DNA from: Frondihabitans sucicola
GTDB lineage: Bacteria; Actinomycetota; Actinomycetes; Actinomycetales; Microbacteriaceae
Direction of reading: 5' to 3'
DNA length: 64,000 nucleotides
Assembly: GCF_030296615.1 (NCBI RefSeq)
Contig: NZ_AP027732.1
Coordinates: 434,001-498,000, forward strand
Numbering within the stretch: the first letter of the stretch is position 1; each line of letters starts with the position of its first letter. This document shows, piece after piece, positions 47,649 through 54,355 of the stretch. Under the pieces are notes generated by a model. The model was not told the DNA's origin. It did not search any database and saw nothing but the letters and a program-made list of their open reading frames with translations. A program made the position numbers and the translations under genes.

Positions 47649-48494
47649 CTAGGCGGCCACCGACGCCCTCCGTCGCACCTCCCGGGTGGCCCACCGGACG
47701 AAAGCGGCGGTCAGGTCGGCGAGGGCCGGATCCGCACGGTTCGTCGCAGGATCGAAGGGCGAGCGCCGATGCAGGATCGCGACGGTGACGAGATCCTGGA
47801 ATTCCGACGGAGCCACCTGGTCGCGAACCCAGGCCGCCGCTTCGCCCTTGCTCGCGACGGTGCCGAAGGTCGCCGCCCAGAGCAGCCGGCAGTGAGTCAG
47901 CACGACGTAAGGCTGGGCCCAGCCGTCGTGGAGCGCCTCGGGCTCCCCGCGGATCCAGGCCGCTCTGACGCCGGCCTGCTCGGCGGCCTCGGCCCGGAGC
48001 GCCGCCGGATCCACGGGCGGGACGAGGCGATGCGCGGGAGGGCCGGTCAGCGGGACGGCGGCCTCGCGCAGCAGCCATCTCGAATTCCACGTGTCGTCGT
48101 GGCGCGAGCGTTCCATCGCGGAGCTCCCATTGTCGACGTACAGCCACGCGTCGTGCGCGCCGACGGCGTCGCCCAGCGCGTGCGCCGAGACCCAACTGCC
48201 TTCGAGGTGGCGCGCCCAGTGCTCGCTCCGATCGGGCAGGATCGCGTGCACCTCGCGCGCCGACGCCTCTTCCGTTCCGGTCAGGTCGTGATCCGACACC
48301 ACCAGGAAGTCGACGTCGCTCGCCTCGTCGCCGGCGTCGATGGCGAACGAGCCGGTGAGGTAGACGCCGACGAGGCCGTCGCCCAGCACACGGCGCGCCC
48401 CCTCGGTGAGGGCAGCCAGAACGGCCGCCAGGGAGGCAGCCTCGGCATCGCCGACCTGCGGCTGCAGAACAGCGGTGATCGACGACGGCGCCAT
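47649..48494 (-). CDS. Nucleotidyltransferase, AadA/ANT(3'')-like with DUF4111
   Basis: A 281-aa protein with the polymerase-beta nucleotidyltransferase motif GSFAIDAGDEASDVDFLV (about residue 48) and a helical DUF4111-like C-terminal domain (VVLTHCRLLWAATFGTVASKGEAAAW), the layout of aminoglycoside (3'') adenylyltransferases. Chromosomal homologues often have other or no resistance substrate. Confidence 0.75.
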   Translation of the reverse strand: MAPSSITAVLQPQVGDAEAASLAAVLAALTEGARRVLGDGLVGVYLTGSFAIDAGDEASDVDFLVVSDHDLTGTEEASAREVHAILPDRSEHWARHLEGSWVSAHALGDAVGAHDAWLYVDNGSSAMERSRHDDTWNSRWLLREAAVPLTGPPAHRLVPPVDPAALRAEAAEQAGVRAAWIRGEPEALHDGWAQPYVVLTHCRLLWAATFGTVASKGEAAAWVRDQVAPSEFQDLVTVAILHRRSPFDPATNRADPALADLTAAFVRWATREVRRRASVAA

Positions 48495-50349: not shown

Positions 50350-51087
50350 ATGGACGGACTCCTTCCCGGCGGGAACATGAACGCGGTCGAGCGGAGCGGC
50401 GACACCGTCCTCCGCACCGCCGGCCCGTGGACGCCGACGGTCCACCGCTACCTCGACCACCTCGCCCTCGCGGGGATCGACTGGGCGCCGCGCCCCGTCG
50501 GCATCGAAGCCGGTCGTGAACGGCTCACCTTCGTCGACGGCGACGTGCCTCTCTACCCTCTTCCGGCGTGGGTCTGGGCCGACTCGGTCCTCGTGGAAGC
50601 TGCGCGCCGACTTCGGGCGCTCCACGACGCGAGCGTCGGGTTCGCCCTCGACGGGGCCGTCTGGCAGTCCCCGGCCAAGATCCCGGCGGAAGTCATCTGC
50701 CACAACGATTTCGCACCCCACAATCTCGCTTTCGCCGACGCCGTGTTCGTCGGAGCCATCGACTTCGACCAGTGCTCTCCCGGCCCCCGCCTCTGGGACA
50801 TCGCCTACCTCGCGACCAGGATCGCCCCGCTCACGGAGGCGACGCCCGATGGCGCTCCGAGCATGGACGACGCCCGCCGCCGGGTCGACCTGCTACTTAC
50901 GTCCTACGGATCCGACGCGAGCTGGAACGACGTCCTGCGAGTCGCGATCATCCGGCTCGTCGACCTGGCCGAGCTGTCGGTTCGAAAGTCCGTGGAGCTC
51001 GGCAAGCCGCACCTTCGCGACGACGCTGCGGCGTACGAGCGCGACGCGGAGTTCCTCCGGGGTTTCCGAGATGCCGACGCTCTCTGA
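50350..51087 (+). CDS. APH-family phosphotransferase
   Basis: A 245-aa protein kinase-like phosphotransferase: catalytic loop CHNDFAPHNL, with the metal-binding IDFDQ after it, the pair that defines aminoglycoside/choline-type APH enzymes. The N-lobe is short. ATG at 50350 chosen; ATG 50377 (MNAVERSG) is also possible. Native substrate unknown. Confidence 0.8.
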   Translation: MDGLLPGGNMNAVERSGDTVLRTAGPWTPTVHRYLDHLALAGIDWAPRPVGIEAGRERLTFVDGDVPLYPLPAWVWADSVLVEAARRLRALHDASVGFALDGAVWQSPAKIPAEVICHNDFAPHNLAFADAVFVGAIDFDQCSPGPRLWDIAYLATRIAPLTEATPDGAPSMDDARRRVDLLLTSYGSDASWNDVLRVAIIRLVDLAELSVRKSVELGKPHLRDDAAAYERDAEFLRGFRDADAL

Positions 51088-51212: not shown

Positions 51213-52556
51213 ATGCCTCCGATCGAACCGACGACCGAACCGCTGCGCGCACGGAAGCGATTCGCGACGATCGCGCTGGCCCTCGCCATCGCTCTTCCCG
51301 CTCTCATCGCCGTTCCCGCCGAGGCCGACGGGTTCCCCACCTGGGATGAGGTCGAGGCCGCGCGCAGCAGCGAATCGGCCAAGCAGGGGCAGATCTCACG
51401 GCTGACCGGCGCGATCTCGCAGCTTCAGCAGGCCACCTCGGCTGCCGCCGCCCGCGCCGAGAAGAGCGGCGCCGACTATCAGAAGGCGCAGGATGCCCTG
51501 GACGACGCCAGCGGCGCCTACGACAAGCTCGCCCGAGAGCTCGACGACGCCCGGACCGAGGCCAAGCGCTCGGCCGAGACCGTGGGTCAGGTAGCAGCTT
51601 CTCTCGCCAAGCCGGGTGCCGGAAGCCCCACCGTGACCCTGCTCTCCGGAGAGGGCGACCCGGGCGAGATCCTGCGAGGCCTCGGCCTGTCGAACCAGGT
51701 CGGCCGGAAGGTGGCCCGCCTCCAGGACGACGCCGTGCAGGCCGCCCGTGTCGTCACGTCCACGTCGAACCAGGCCAAGGTCGCGAAGGAAGCCCGCCAG
51801 AAGCAGTCGAAAGCGGCAGCCGCCGCCCTCGAAGAGGCGACCTCGGCGAGCCGGGCCGCTGCTGCCGCCGAGGACGCCGAGCGCAGCAACCTCGGCGTGA
51901 TGCAGGCGCAGCTCGCGACCCTGCGAAACGACGCCCTGTCGATCGAAGAGGGGTACCAGGAGGGTGTCGCCGCCCGAGCCGCGGCCGCGGCCGCCGAGGC
52001 GGCGCGCGTCGAGAAGATCCGGCAGGCAGCCGCCGCCGCGGAAGCCGAGCGTCGACGTGCCGCCGCGGCCAATCCCGTGACTCCGGCGCGCCCCTCGCCG
52101 CCAGTCCCCTCCACCGGCGGAGGCTCGGGAGGCGGCTCCTCCTCGGCCAACGGCTGGACCCGGCCGATCACGTCGTACAGCTTCTACCAGGCCTACGGCT
52201 ACCGCATGCACCCCGTGTACCACACGTACAAATTGCACGCCGGCGCCGACTTCAGCGCCGGCTGCGGCACCCCGATCTACGCGACATCGGCCGGGACGGT
52301 GACCTACGCCGGCGCCTACGGCGGCTACGGCAACCTGATCATCATCGATCACGGAAACGGCGTCACGAGCGCCTACGGCCACGTGTTCCCCAGCGGCATC
52401 TACGTGCGCGCCGGCCAGCGCGTGTCCGAGGGGCAGAACATCGCCGGTGTCGGAAACGCCGGCGTCTCGACGGGCTGCCACCTGCACTTCGAGGTCCGGC
52501 GCGGCGGCATCGCCACCGATCCGATGGCCTTCCTCCGCACCAAGGGCGTCGGCTGA
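51213..52556 (+). CDS. M23-family peptidoglycan endopeptidase with coiled coil
   Basis: A 447-aa exported protein. Signal peptide with hydrophobic core (FATIALALAIALPALIA), long coiled coil (residues about 50-295, with an Ala/Glu-rich section), Gly/Ser linker, and a C-terminal LytM/M23 domain with the zinc ligands in HAGADF and HLHFEV. Cleaves or regulates cleavage of peptidoglycan, as in FtsX-linked RipC-like hydrolases. Confidence 0.9.
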   Translation: MPPIEPTTEPLRARKRFATIALALAIALPALIAVPAEADGFPTWDEVEAARSSESAKQGQISRLTGAISQLQQATSAAAARAEKSGADYQKAQDALDDASGAYDKLARELDDARTEAKRSAETVGQVAASLAKPGAGSPTVTLLSGEGDPGEILRGLGLSNQVGRKVARLQDDAVQAARVVTSTSNQAKVAKEARQKQSKAAAAALEEATSASRAAAAAEDAERSNLGVMQAQLATLRNDALSIEEGYQEGVAARAAAAAAEAARVEKIRQAAAAAEAERRRAAAANPVTPARPSPPVPSTGGGSGGGSSSANGWTRPITSYSFYQAYGYRMHPVYHTYKLHAGADFSAGCGTPIYATSAGTVTYAGAYGGYGNLIIIDHGNGVTSAYGHVFPSGIYVRAGQRVSEGQNIAGVGNAGVSTGCHLHFEVRRGGIATDPMAFLRTKGVG

Positions 52557-52591: not shown

Positions 52592-53311
52592 TCACTGCTC
52601 CAGACGGAACGCGACCTGCTGCACGAGCGCGTCGTCCGGGAGGCCGGGGTAGTGCCGCCGTAGGCCTGCCCGGAGGAGGTCCGGCGACGGGGCGTTCTCG
52701 AGAACGGCGTCCGCCTGCGTGAGCTCGTCGACGCGGCGGTCCTCGACCCGATCGACACGTGCCGGGAGGGTGCGGAACCCGTCGGCGTCTTCGAAGACGA
52801 GCAGGACGGGGCCGACGTCGATCGGATCGCGGTAGCGGAGCGTGGCCGTCTTCCGGCCGGCCACGATGTCGTCGTAGTAGCGGCTGTCGAATCGGACCAG
52901 CCGGGCGACGCTGCTGTCGGGATACCGGTATTCGTGCGGCAGGAGTTCGCGGATCGGCACGCTGTCGGGACCATCGGCCGTCGGCACGATGACGAACACG
53001 TCGGGATGCAGATCGAGCAGCACCTGGCGGCAGCGACCGCACGGAGGGATGACGCCTCGACCTCGATCCCCCACTGCCACGATGGTGACCAGGCGTTCCG
53101 GGCCGGCGGCGGCGGCAGCGCCGAGCGTCACCAGCTCGGCACAGGGGCCCCCGTTGAAGTGGGAGACGTTGACGCCGGTGTGGATCCTGCCCAGGGTGTC
53201 CATGGCGGCGGACGCCACGGTGTGCGTCGGATCTCCGTGCAACGACGTCGCGGCGACCTCGACGGCGGCGTCGAGCACCCTCTTCTCGTTTTCGACAAGC
53301 ATGTGCTCCAT
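52592..53311 (-). CDS. Cytidine deaminase fused to ASCH domain
   Basis: A 239-aa two-domain protein. Residues about 5-125 form a cytidine/blasticidin-type deaminase: catalytic Glu and Cys in GGPCAEL (C57, E59) and PPCGRCRQ (C91, C94). Residues 135-239 are an ASCH domain with AGRKTATLR (K154, T157) and LEN (E205). From memory of E. coli YqfB, an N4-acetylcytidine amidohydrolase, the catalytic Lys, Thr and Glu sit at equivalent places. So it may turn N4-acetylcytidine into cytidine and then uridine in one chain. An ATG at 53302 is an alternative start. Confidence 0.82.
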
Positions 53312-53365
53312 CCTCGCCCTTCGGGACACCGACGCAGAATCGCGCGACCCCGGCGAGCGCCCTCC

Positions 53366-54139
53366 TCAGCCCAGCAGGCGGCGGAACTCGCTGACGTCGC
53401 CGCCGAAGACGTCCGCGTCGACACGCGCCGTCCCGTGCCCGTCGAGGTGGACCCCCTCGCGATCGGACCACTGCCACAGCGTCCATCGCCCCGAGGCGGT
53501 CAGGAACGGCGGGGACAAAATCGACCGGATCCACAGCGGGTTGCGCGGAAACGCCGCCTGGAGATACCGCTTGTTCCAGCCTGCGGTCGCATAGAGCACG
53601 GGTGCGGTGCCGTAGTGCGCTGCCACCGCGACGACCAGTTCGCGAACCATCTTTCTCACCTTCGCGACCGGCGGCGGATGTGCGCAGTAGCGCCCGTAGC
53701 ACTCGACGTCGATCGCGATGGGGAGGTCGCCTGGGCGCAGCGCGACGGTGTCGAAGAGGTGGTCGGCCTGCTGCGCCGCCGGACTGTCGAGGCTGAGGAA
53801 GTGGTACGCCCCCGCGGTGATGCCCGTCTCGTGGACGCTTTTCCAGTTGCGCGCGAATCGGGCGTCCGTGTACGAGGAACCCTCCGTCGCCTTGATGTAC
53901 GCGAACGAGACCTCCTGCCGGGCCACCAGCGGCCAGTCGATCCTGCCCTGGTAGGCCGACACATCGATACCGCGGACCGGGTACCTGTGCGCGAACCACC
54001 GATTGGGCCACAGGGTCCCGTTCACGGTCAGCGCCACGAGGACGACGCCGACGATCAGCAGGATCCCGCCGCGAAGCAGCACGCCGACCCGGCGCCGCAG
54101 TCGTCCTGATCGTGGGGCACTGCCCGTGAGGTTCGTCAT
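53366..54139 (-). CDS. GH25 lysozyme (membrane-anchored muramidase)
   Basis: A 257-aa protein: a basic N-terminus, one membrane segment (residues about 20-45: ILLIVGVVLVALTVNGT), then a GH25 fold starting VRGIDVSAYQGRIDW, with acid residues in FAYIKATEG and IAIDVECYG and the final WTLWQWSDRE. It splits the peptidoglycan glycan strand. ATG at 54139 chosen; upstream extension lacks signal-peptide features. Confidence 0.85.
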   Translation of the reverse strand: MTNLTGSAPRSGRLRRRVGVLLRGGILLIVGVVLVALTVNGTLWPNRWFAHRYPVRGIDVSAYQGRIDWPLVARQEVSFAYIKATEGSSYTDARFARNWKSVHETGITAGAYHFLSLDSPAAQQADHLFDTVALRPGDLPIAIDVECYGRYCAHPPPVAKVRKMVRELVVAVAAHYGTAPVLYATAGWNKRYLQAAFPRNPLWIRSILSPPFLTASGRWTLWQWSDREGVHLDGHGTARVDADVFGGDVSEFRRLLG

Positions 54140-54265
54140 CGCGACGAGTCCAGCAGCGGTCGGGAACGGGCCGCATCGATCATTCGGATGACGTTCGCGC
54201 GCCGCGTGGAGGATGCGGCGCGGCTTGTGCCTCTCCCCCGCCACCTCCCTGCACCCCTCCCTCCC

Positions 54266-54355
54266 CTCCCGAAATCGAAGGGGATTTTCGCCGGGCGGCC
54301 CCTGCGGGCCCATGAACCGCGGGCAGGATCGAGAATCCCCTTCGATTTCGGGAGG
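54266..54355. repeat. Dispersed hairpin element, family A, copy 3
   Basis: Inverted repeat with arms 54266-54292 and 54331-54355; the core GAAATCGAAGGGGATTTTCG is shared with copy 1, and the right arm differs by one base (GAGAATCC in place of GAAAATCC). It lies between the GH25 start and the end of the RibD-like reductase, in a 260-base gap with no gene. Unlike copies 1 and 2 it is not between convergent genes. Confidence 0.88.

Follow-up and report, generated by a model that had tools for sequence, protein, structure and literature searches.

A single gene of the actinobacterium Frondihabitans sucicola encodes a deaminase joined to an ASCH domain, which raises the question of what substrate could call for both modules. 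The original prediction for this gene, made on the 64,000-nucleotide stretch of DNA analysed here (the window), was a two-step enzyme that takes N4-acetylcytidine (ac4C) from RNA turnover to cytidine and on to uridine; nucleoside antibiotics and blasticidin S were mentioned in passing. We find that the fusion, the zinc site and the alignment with YqfB of Escherichia coli stand, but that salvage of ac4C from RNA is not supported, and that the side remark on antibiotics is the better lead.

The fused reading frame and its deaminase half

The fusion is confirmed. As had been predicted, a deaminase and an ASCH domain share one open reading frame (Table 1), to which an alternative in-frame GTG start at 53329 would add six residues, and Pfam matches dCMP_cyt_deam_1 to residues 7–106 of the product (28.3 bits, cut-off 25) and ASCH to residues 141–235 (45.2 bits, cut-off 21.2). 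A search of genome_contigs found 19 relatives, in Streptomyces, Arthrobacter, Pseudarthrobacter, Microbacterium, Brevibacterium, Actinomyces, a Propionibacteriaceae MAG and others. As 15 of these 19 loci have both halves, the fusion is not due to chance; a chance reading frame or an annotation artefact was ruled out by the presence of the same architecture in many genera.

Table 1. Features of the fusion gene, in window positions
Feature	Position	Strand	Detail or basis
BSD-ASCH fusion gene	52592..53311	(-)	239-aa ORF, ATG start at 53311, ends in stop
Deaminase domain, residues 1-132, predicted blasticidin S deaminase type	52916..53311	(-)	PDB phmmer, Foldseek, residue tally
S50, position of the ribose-binding Glu in 25/27 sampled cytidine deaminases	53162..53164	(-)	residue tally
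C57-A58-E59, first zinc Cys and catalytic Glu, then L60 as in BSD	53135..53143	(-)
P90-C91-G92-R93-C94, second and third zinc Cys	53030..53044	(-)
ASCH domain, residues 135-239, YqfB-related	52595..52909	(-)	Pfam, AlphaFold2 model, VIA-align
K154-T-A-T157-L-R159, aligned with K21, T24 and R26 of YqfB	52835..52852	(-)
E205, aligned with E74 of YqfB	52697..52699	(-)
Y221-P222, Y221 aligned with Y89 of YqfB	52646..52651	(-)

The gene is flanked by an M23 peptidase gene (51213–52556, + strand) and a GH25 glycosyl hydrolase gene (53366–54313, − strand), and at 69.7% G+C it differs little from either (71.7% and 69.1%, respectively). A homologue of the GH25 neighbour occurs in 7 of 40 genomes, F. sucicola included. 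Two other genes less than 5 kb away encode an AadA-like nucleotidyltransferase (an AadA_C/NTP_transf_2 protein; 47649–48494, − strand) and an APH-family protein (50350–51087, + strand); both are weakly similar to aminoglycoside-modifying enzymes, and neither reached the curated NCBIfam resistance models. The F. sucicola genome, estimated to be 92% complete, contains the fusion and one more distant deaminase (L002; G000:C1:3569119–3569397), which has ordinary F-P-V-G-A-A and N-V-E-N-A-S motifs.

By sequence and predicted structure, the deaminase half groups with the blasticidin S deaminases (BSDs) rather than with generic cytidine deaminases; thus the intact zinc site of the original prediction was retained, while its assignment to cytidine deaminases at large was not. 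Against the PDB, phmmer placed the BSDs of Aspergillus terreus (1wn5, E 2.1e-35) and Coccidioides immitis (3oj6, E 4.5e-35) far ahead of the best cytidine deaminase (3mpz, E 5.7e-13). When Foldseek was run with the AlphaFold2 model of the full-length protein (pLDDT 87), ranks 1–16 were all BSD chains (E 5.0e-14 for 1wn6; TM-score to the target 0.84–0.91 over the 16 chains), and cytidine deaminases came after them (3mpz, E 2.8e-9; TM-score 0.75–0.78). The half shares 57% of 111 aligned residues with the A. terreus BSD and 53% of 116 with that of C. immitis. The A. terreus BSD reportedly hardly acts on cytidine, and the BSD of S. lividans is said to have blasticidin S and cytosylglucuronic acid as substrates.

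The residues of the site agree with this assignment. Both solved BSDs (A. terreus 1wn5/1wn6/2z3g-j; C. immitis 3oj6) have the same zinc-site letters as the window protein (C-A-E-L and P-C-G-R-C) and, like it, a shortened NV-x-H-F-x-GG loop without the ribose-binding Glu. They differ from it in length, as the solved chains have 130–158 residues and no ASCH domain, whereas the fusion carries a C-terminal ASCH domain of about 105 residues. The deaminase fold and zinc motifs are also common to the tetrameric cytidine deaminases, in which, according to the available part of PMC9897663, Glu44 binds the ribose; yet the identity to five sampled cytidine-type deaminases is 32–39%, and Ser50 stands where the Glu44 of the NVEN motif marks a cytidine deaminase (EC 3.5.4.5). 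A Glu at this position was found in 25 of 27 sampled proteins classed as cytidine deaminases (the class being set by an identity below 45%). None of the 38 fusions has it, nor has any of 33 BSD-only proteins or of the 2 solved BSDs; where the window protein has Ser, most of its relatives have a Tyr or a His. All matches to the NCBIfam cytidine deaminase models were below their cut-offs (the best three were 63.9 of 131, 54.6 of 74 and 51 of 113.65 bits). The nearest relatives by both sequence and fold, the zinc motifs, the shortened loop and the lack of the ribose Glu all place the protein among BSD-type deaminases.

The deaminase may be altered in some of the fusions, because the third zinc Cys is replaced by Asp (PCGRD for PCGRC) in 13 of 38 and the position of Y128 is not Tyr in 9 of 38. 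The Asp variant, also seen in 4 of 33 BSD-only proteins (L060, L062–L064), forms one supported clade, which is possibly Asp-ligated or altered in activity. Its fusions include L099 (8001–8384), L022, L072–L074, L076–L080, L082, L100 and L114; C57, E59 and C91 are retained in all 13, and the BSD-only L063 is without the C-A-E letters. In Actinomadura alba (L019, 4518–5369) a NUDIX domain precedes a BSD-type deaminase in a single frame.

The ASCH half compared with YqfB

The nearest solved relative of the ASCH half is YqfB, the N4-acetylcytidine amidohydrolase of E. coli (9kyf, 9kyh). With the AlphaFold2 model of the domain (pLDDT 93.2), the YqfB crystal structures were the best Foldseek matches (E 1.5e-7), and VIA-align superposed the model on 9kyf with Z 13.9 and rmsd 2.0 over 98 residues, against Z 10.7 and 10.4 for the next other ASCH structures; sequence identity is 24–26%. 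A profile built from the ASCH domains of the fusions scored a YqfB fragment (residues 6–92) at 34.1 bits and 25 sampled actinobacterial ASCH proteins at no more than 23.0. The reverse search with the YqfB fragment is a point against, as only 9 of 32 fusions ranked above the best of the 25 generic ASCH proteins and the rest fell among them. As YqfB is the closest both by structure and by the fusion-ASCH profile, the original prediction had named the right protein. The pairing of residues, taken from sequence alignments (the fold match comes from Foldseek and VIA-align of the predicted model), agrees with it too. The Lys, Thr and Glu that had been matched to those of YqfB do align with the crystal sequence, as do an Arg and a Tyr (Table 1).

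The triad alone does not demonstrate YqfB-type catalysis, because Lys, Thr and the acid are a signature of ASCH proteins at large. Of the 25 other sampled actinobacterial ASCH proteins, all 25 had the Lys, 23 the Thr and 24 an acid in the place of E74, and after this comparison we dropped the triad as proof of YqfB chemistry. The window protein also has, as G-R-K-T-A-T-L-R, the octapeptide G-X-K-X-X-[ETS]-X-R given for the ASCH superfamily in the available part of PMC9599836, and so belongs to that superfamily. The equivalent of Arg26 discriminates better, being present in 32 of 32 fusions versus 10 of the 25 other ASCH proteins.

Most of the YqfB site is kept in the family: K21 in 31 of the 32 fusions, T24 in 30 (plus one Ser), R26 in all and Y89 in 31. 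An acid at the E74 position is found in 22 (10 Glu, 12 Asp) and is missing, in this alignment, from 10, which are members of Arthrobacter, Pseudarthrobacter, Microbacterium, Brevibacterium, Propionibacteriaceae and Actinomyces and one Streptomyces (L016). Besides the fused deaminase and this variable acid, the window protein differs from YqfB in D27 and H70, described as invariant within the YqfB branch (PMC6972931, in part); Y160 and D201 stand in their places, and among the fusions H70 is retained in 4 of 32 and D27 in none. It thus has the K21, T24, R26, E74 and Y89 expected of a YqfB-type protein, but not D27 and H70. According to the same partial source, K21A, T24A and R26A inactivate YqfB, T24S is about as active as the wild type, E74A lowers turnover 100- to 1000-fold, H70A costs more than tenfold, and D27A is still active (PMC6972931). 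The missing D27 is therefore no objection, and one of the two fusions without Thr is tolerable, since it has the Ser that YqfB accepts.

This pattern of conservation suggests constraint on the residues that would serve as nucleophile, base and oxyanion hole in the ASCH domains of the fusions, with the acid absent in some clades. At 17.7 bits, against a cut-off of 93, the window protein falls outside the NCBIfam YqfB model (NF003443) by score, and it may nonetheless work like YqfB. One fusion counts against this, as L015 has lost the Lys and Thr of the ASCH site with its deaminase motifs intact. A second ASCH protein of F. sucicola (L128; G000:C1:1595956–1596288) is of another type, scoring 63.9 bits with Pfam ASCH and a mere 0.9 bits with the fusion ASCH profile.

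Distribution, mobility and the link between the modules

We found the fusion in 16 of 295 Streptomyces genomes, one of them with an internal deletion (G762), and in 7 of 199 Microbacteriaceae genomes (the assignment of both genome sets to these taxa is inferred). A sample of 396 genomes across the phylum had it, as judged by match ranges, in F. sucicola and one Streptomyces only. BSD-type matches (E ≤1e-15) were more widespread in the Streptomyces set, occurring in 110 of 295 genomes, fusions included.

Plasmids also carry the fusion. Thirty-one plasmid records had a match, and in six, from Curtobacterium, S. griseoaurantiacus, S. goshikiensis (two), Streptomyces sp. NBC_01276 and Rhodococcus gordoniae, it covered at least 80% of the query. 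All six proteins are annotated 'ASCH domain-containing protein' (e.g. WP_111025509.1), a name that omits the deaminase half of the same two-domain architecture. On pDND3A of R. gordoniae (L101, 6667–9737) the fusion has an IS3 transposase gene on one side and an IS5 transposase gene on the other; the motifs of this lineage are CGEI and PCGKC.

A crude all-versus-all comparison of neighbouring open reading frames at 20 loci and the window gave no neighbour family common to fusions across clades. Besides the fusion itself there were four cross-clade clusters, two of which were antisense frames over the fusion and two of which were pairs that each include a gene of the window (for a RibD_C-like reductase and for an apparent quinone-oxidoreductase-like enzyme). 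An operon or biosynthetic partner common to the clades found no support at these loci. Three Brevibacterium loci (L011, L012 and L013) have a local gene order in common around the fusion, which suggests that it has resided longer in this genus.

Nor did a phage or defence origin find support. The viral_contigs collection yielded no relative at the threshold used (49 pattern matches, none confirmed), the phages collection gave one weak match, to the deaminase only, and PADLOC gave none at its threshold. The PADLOC result bears on the idea of a nucleic-acid editing or modified-base enzyme, whose ASCH domain would bind RNA or DNA while the deaminase edits cytosine there. The deaminase fold does serve editing in other systems, and ASCH/PUA domains are described as RNA binders in the literature available in part, but the nearest deaminases act on a small antibiotic, PADLOC has no counterpart and no partner gene adjoins the fusion across clades, so that we consider editing very improbable.

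Several relatives are broken. L018, one of the 15 with both halves, has its deaminase part split over two frames by a frameshift at about 5120; L075 has an internal deletion at about 1497 that removes the ASCH Lys; and L125 is a decayed remnant. Such relatives fit a dispensable accessory gene, and fusions with altered or broken sites may be either decaying accessory genes or altered enzymes. Given the patchy spread, the plasmids, the IS3 and IS5 flanks and the lack of a neighbour shared across clades, the fusion probably spreads horizontally, with the habit of a resistance gene.

How firmly the two modules belong together was judged from their phylogeny and co-occurrence. A quick deaminase tree, built on 127 columns with SH-aLRT as its sole support measure and with 37 of its 73 inner branches open, has three fusion lineages with BSD-only proteins inside fusion clades. 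It requires seven switches between the fused and the BSD-only state, four of them forced by starred branches. Among Streptomyces without the fusion, a BSD-type deaminase is present in 94 of 279 genomes, and in 7 of 7 that have a non-fused relative of the ASCH domain (hypergeometric P 4e-4, relatedness ignored). This co-occurrence is support and not proof, because relatedness is ignored, the ASCH relative of G654 is a broken remnant, and among the six that are left five ASCH sequences look similar by eye. These six stand-alone Streptomyces proteins (L106, L112, L113, L121, L122 and L123) are 37–49% identical to the ASCH half of the window protein and keep the Lys, Thr, Arg and Tyr, with Asp at the acid position, in 6 of 6. 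No operon was seen around the separate ASCH genes at three of the six loci (L106, L112 and L123), where the neighbours were unrelated; at L106 the upstream gene resembles the end of gyrA.

It is possible that the deaminase is the sole catalyst and the ASCH domain a binding module, which keeps the cytosine nucleoside, the ribosome or RNA close to the deaminase or stabilizes an oligomer. Binding of nucleic acid or of modified bases has been described for ASCH/PUA domains (PMC7641849, in part), and the loss of the acid in 10 of 32 fusions and of H70 in most, the intact deaminase motifs of L015 beside an ASCH site without its Lys and Thr, and the nesting of BSD-only relatives within fusion clades would all agree with such a role. 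It explains less well why the Lys, Thr, Arg and Tyr are near-invariant across 32 fusions, why they are kept in the stand-alone Streptomyces proteins, and why the nearest structure is an amidohydrolase. We regard a pure binding role as a tentative alternative.

Candidate substrates

The ac4C route, in which the ASCH half deacetylates ac4C from RNA turnover and the deaminase passes the cytidine on to uridine for pyrimidine salvage, has in its favour that YqfB, to which the ASCH half is closest, has ac4C as its best substrate, and that the Lys, Thr, Arg and Tyr are conserved. TmcA and TmcAL are the known bacterial ac4C writers. Neither family (PF13718 and PF05636, respectively) was detected at E ≤0.01 in any of 22 fusion-bearing genomes, while the positive controls, E. 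coli for TmcA and B. subtilis for TmcAL, were both detected. A supply of ac4C from within these cells is thus unlikely; ac4C may be imported. Joint action of a cytidine deaminase and a YqfB-like enzyme has been speculated on in PMC9897663, as far as the available part goes; however, the BSD type without the ribose-binding Glu, the separate deaminase of F. sucicola with ordinary cytidine deaminase motifs, and a spread that is patchy and in part plasmid-borne add to the missing writers in making salvage from RNA, as first proposed, improbable.

The best reading, to which we assign a probability of about 0.45, is a mobile, stand-alone, two-module enzyme that detoxifies cytosine-pyranoside antibiotics. 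The N-terminal zinc deaminase of BSD type would convert the 4-amino group of the cytosine in pyranosyl-cytosine (blasticidin-like) nucleosides to 4-oxo, thereby inactivating them. The C-terminal YqfB-like module would most likely hydrolyse the amide of N4-acylated cytosines, with Thr157 as nucleophile, Lys154 as base and Arg159 in the oxyanion hole, so that N4-acylated members of the class, such as the amicetin family, would be turned into substrates of the deaminase. Activity of the deaminase on blasticidin-like nucleosides is likely, the chances of amidohydrolase activity are about even, and an amicetin-type two-step route is speculative.

Published work gives this reading some footing. In the available parts of the sources, enzymes of the BSD type are established determinants of resistance (PMC4664946); a cytosine bound in the same ribosomal pocket is common to blasticidin S and amicetin, amicetin having an extra para-aminobenzoate (PABA) arm (PMC12856912); and compounds related to amicetin carry other amide groups on amicetosyl-cytosine (PMC4278220). 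YqfB and four homologues cleave N4-benzoylcytidine, and the same five enzymes also cleave N4-(4-acetylbenzoyl)-2'-deoxycytidine, though incompletely, much of it being left at 24 h (PMC9599836, in part). A BSD paired with an N4-acyl-cytosine amidohydrolase would suit this antibiotic class, since the one would accept pyranosyl cytosine and the other would cleave N4-acyl amides.

In its strictest form, a single mobile gene would inactivate N4-acylated pyranosyl-cytosine antibiotics (amicetin, plicacetin, bamicetin and the cytosaminomycins) in two steps, the ASCH module cutting the N4 amide and the BSD deaminating the freed cytosine, which could then not be re-acylated to active drug. We consider this form somewhat doubtful. 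The ASCH amidohydrolase may not be needed at all, because tetrameric cytidine deaminases can release N4-acyl groups by themselves (PMC9897663, in part).

The fusion described here is real, recurs and is mobile, and it joins enzymes of two kinds already known. In the literature on ASCH domains with deaminases or blasticidin deaminases, as far as it was searched and available, a BSD-ASCH fusion is undescribed; the word deaminase is absent from the available text of PMC9599836, and no paper on the YqfB crystal structures was found in the literature searched. The vast majority of ASCH proteins are without an assigned function (PMC6972931, in part), and the recurrent fusion to a BSD-type deaminase suggests small cytosine nucleosides as substrates of ASCH domains. 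If the two-step form of the detoxification reading is true, an actinobacterial ASCH protein would gain a biological role, and the fusion would be a route of resistance to the amicetin group. If the reading is right, soil actinobacteria would also carry a mobile gene that could defeat amicetin-like compounds as well as blasticidin-amicetin chimeras (the latter described in the available part of PMC12856912).
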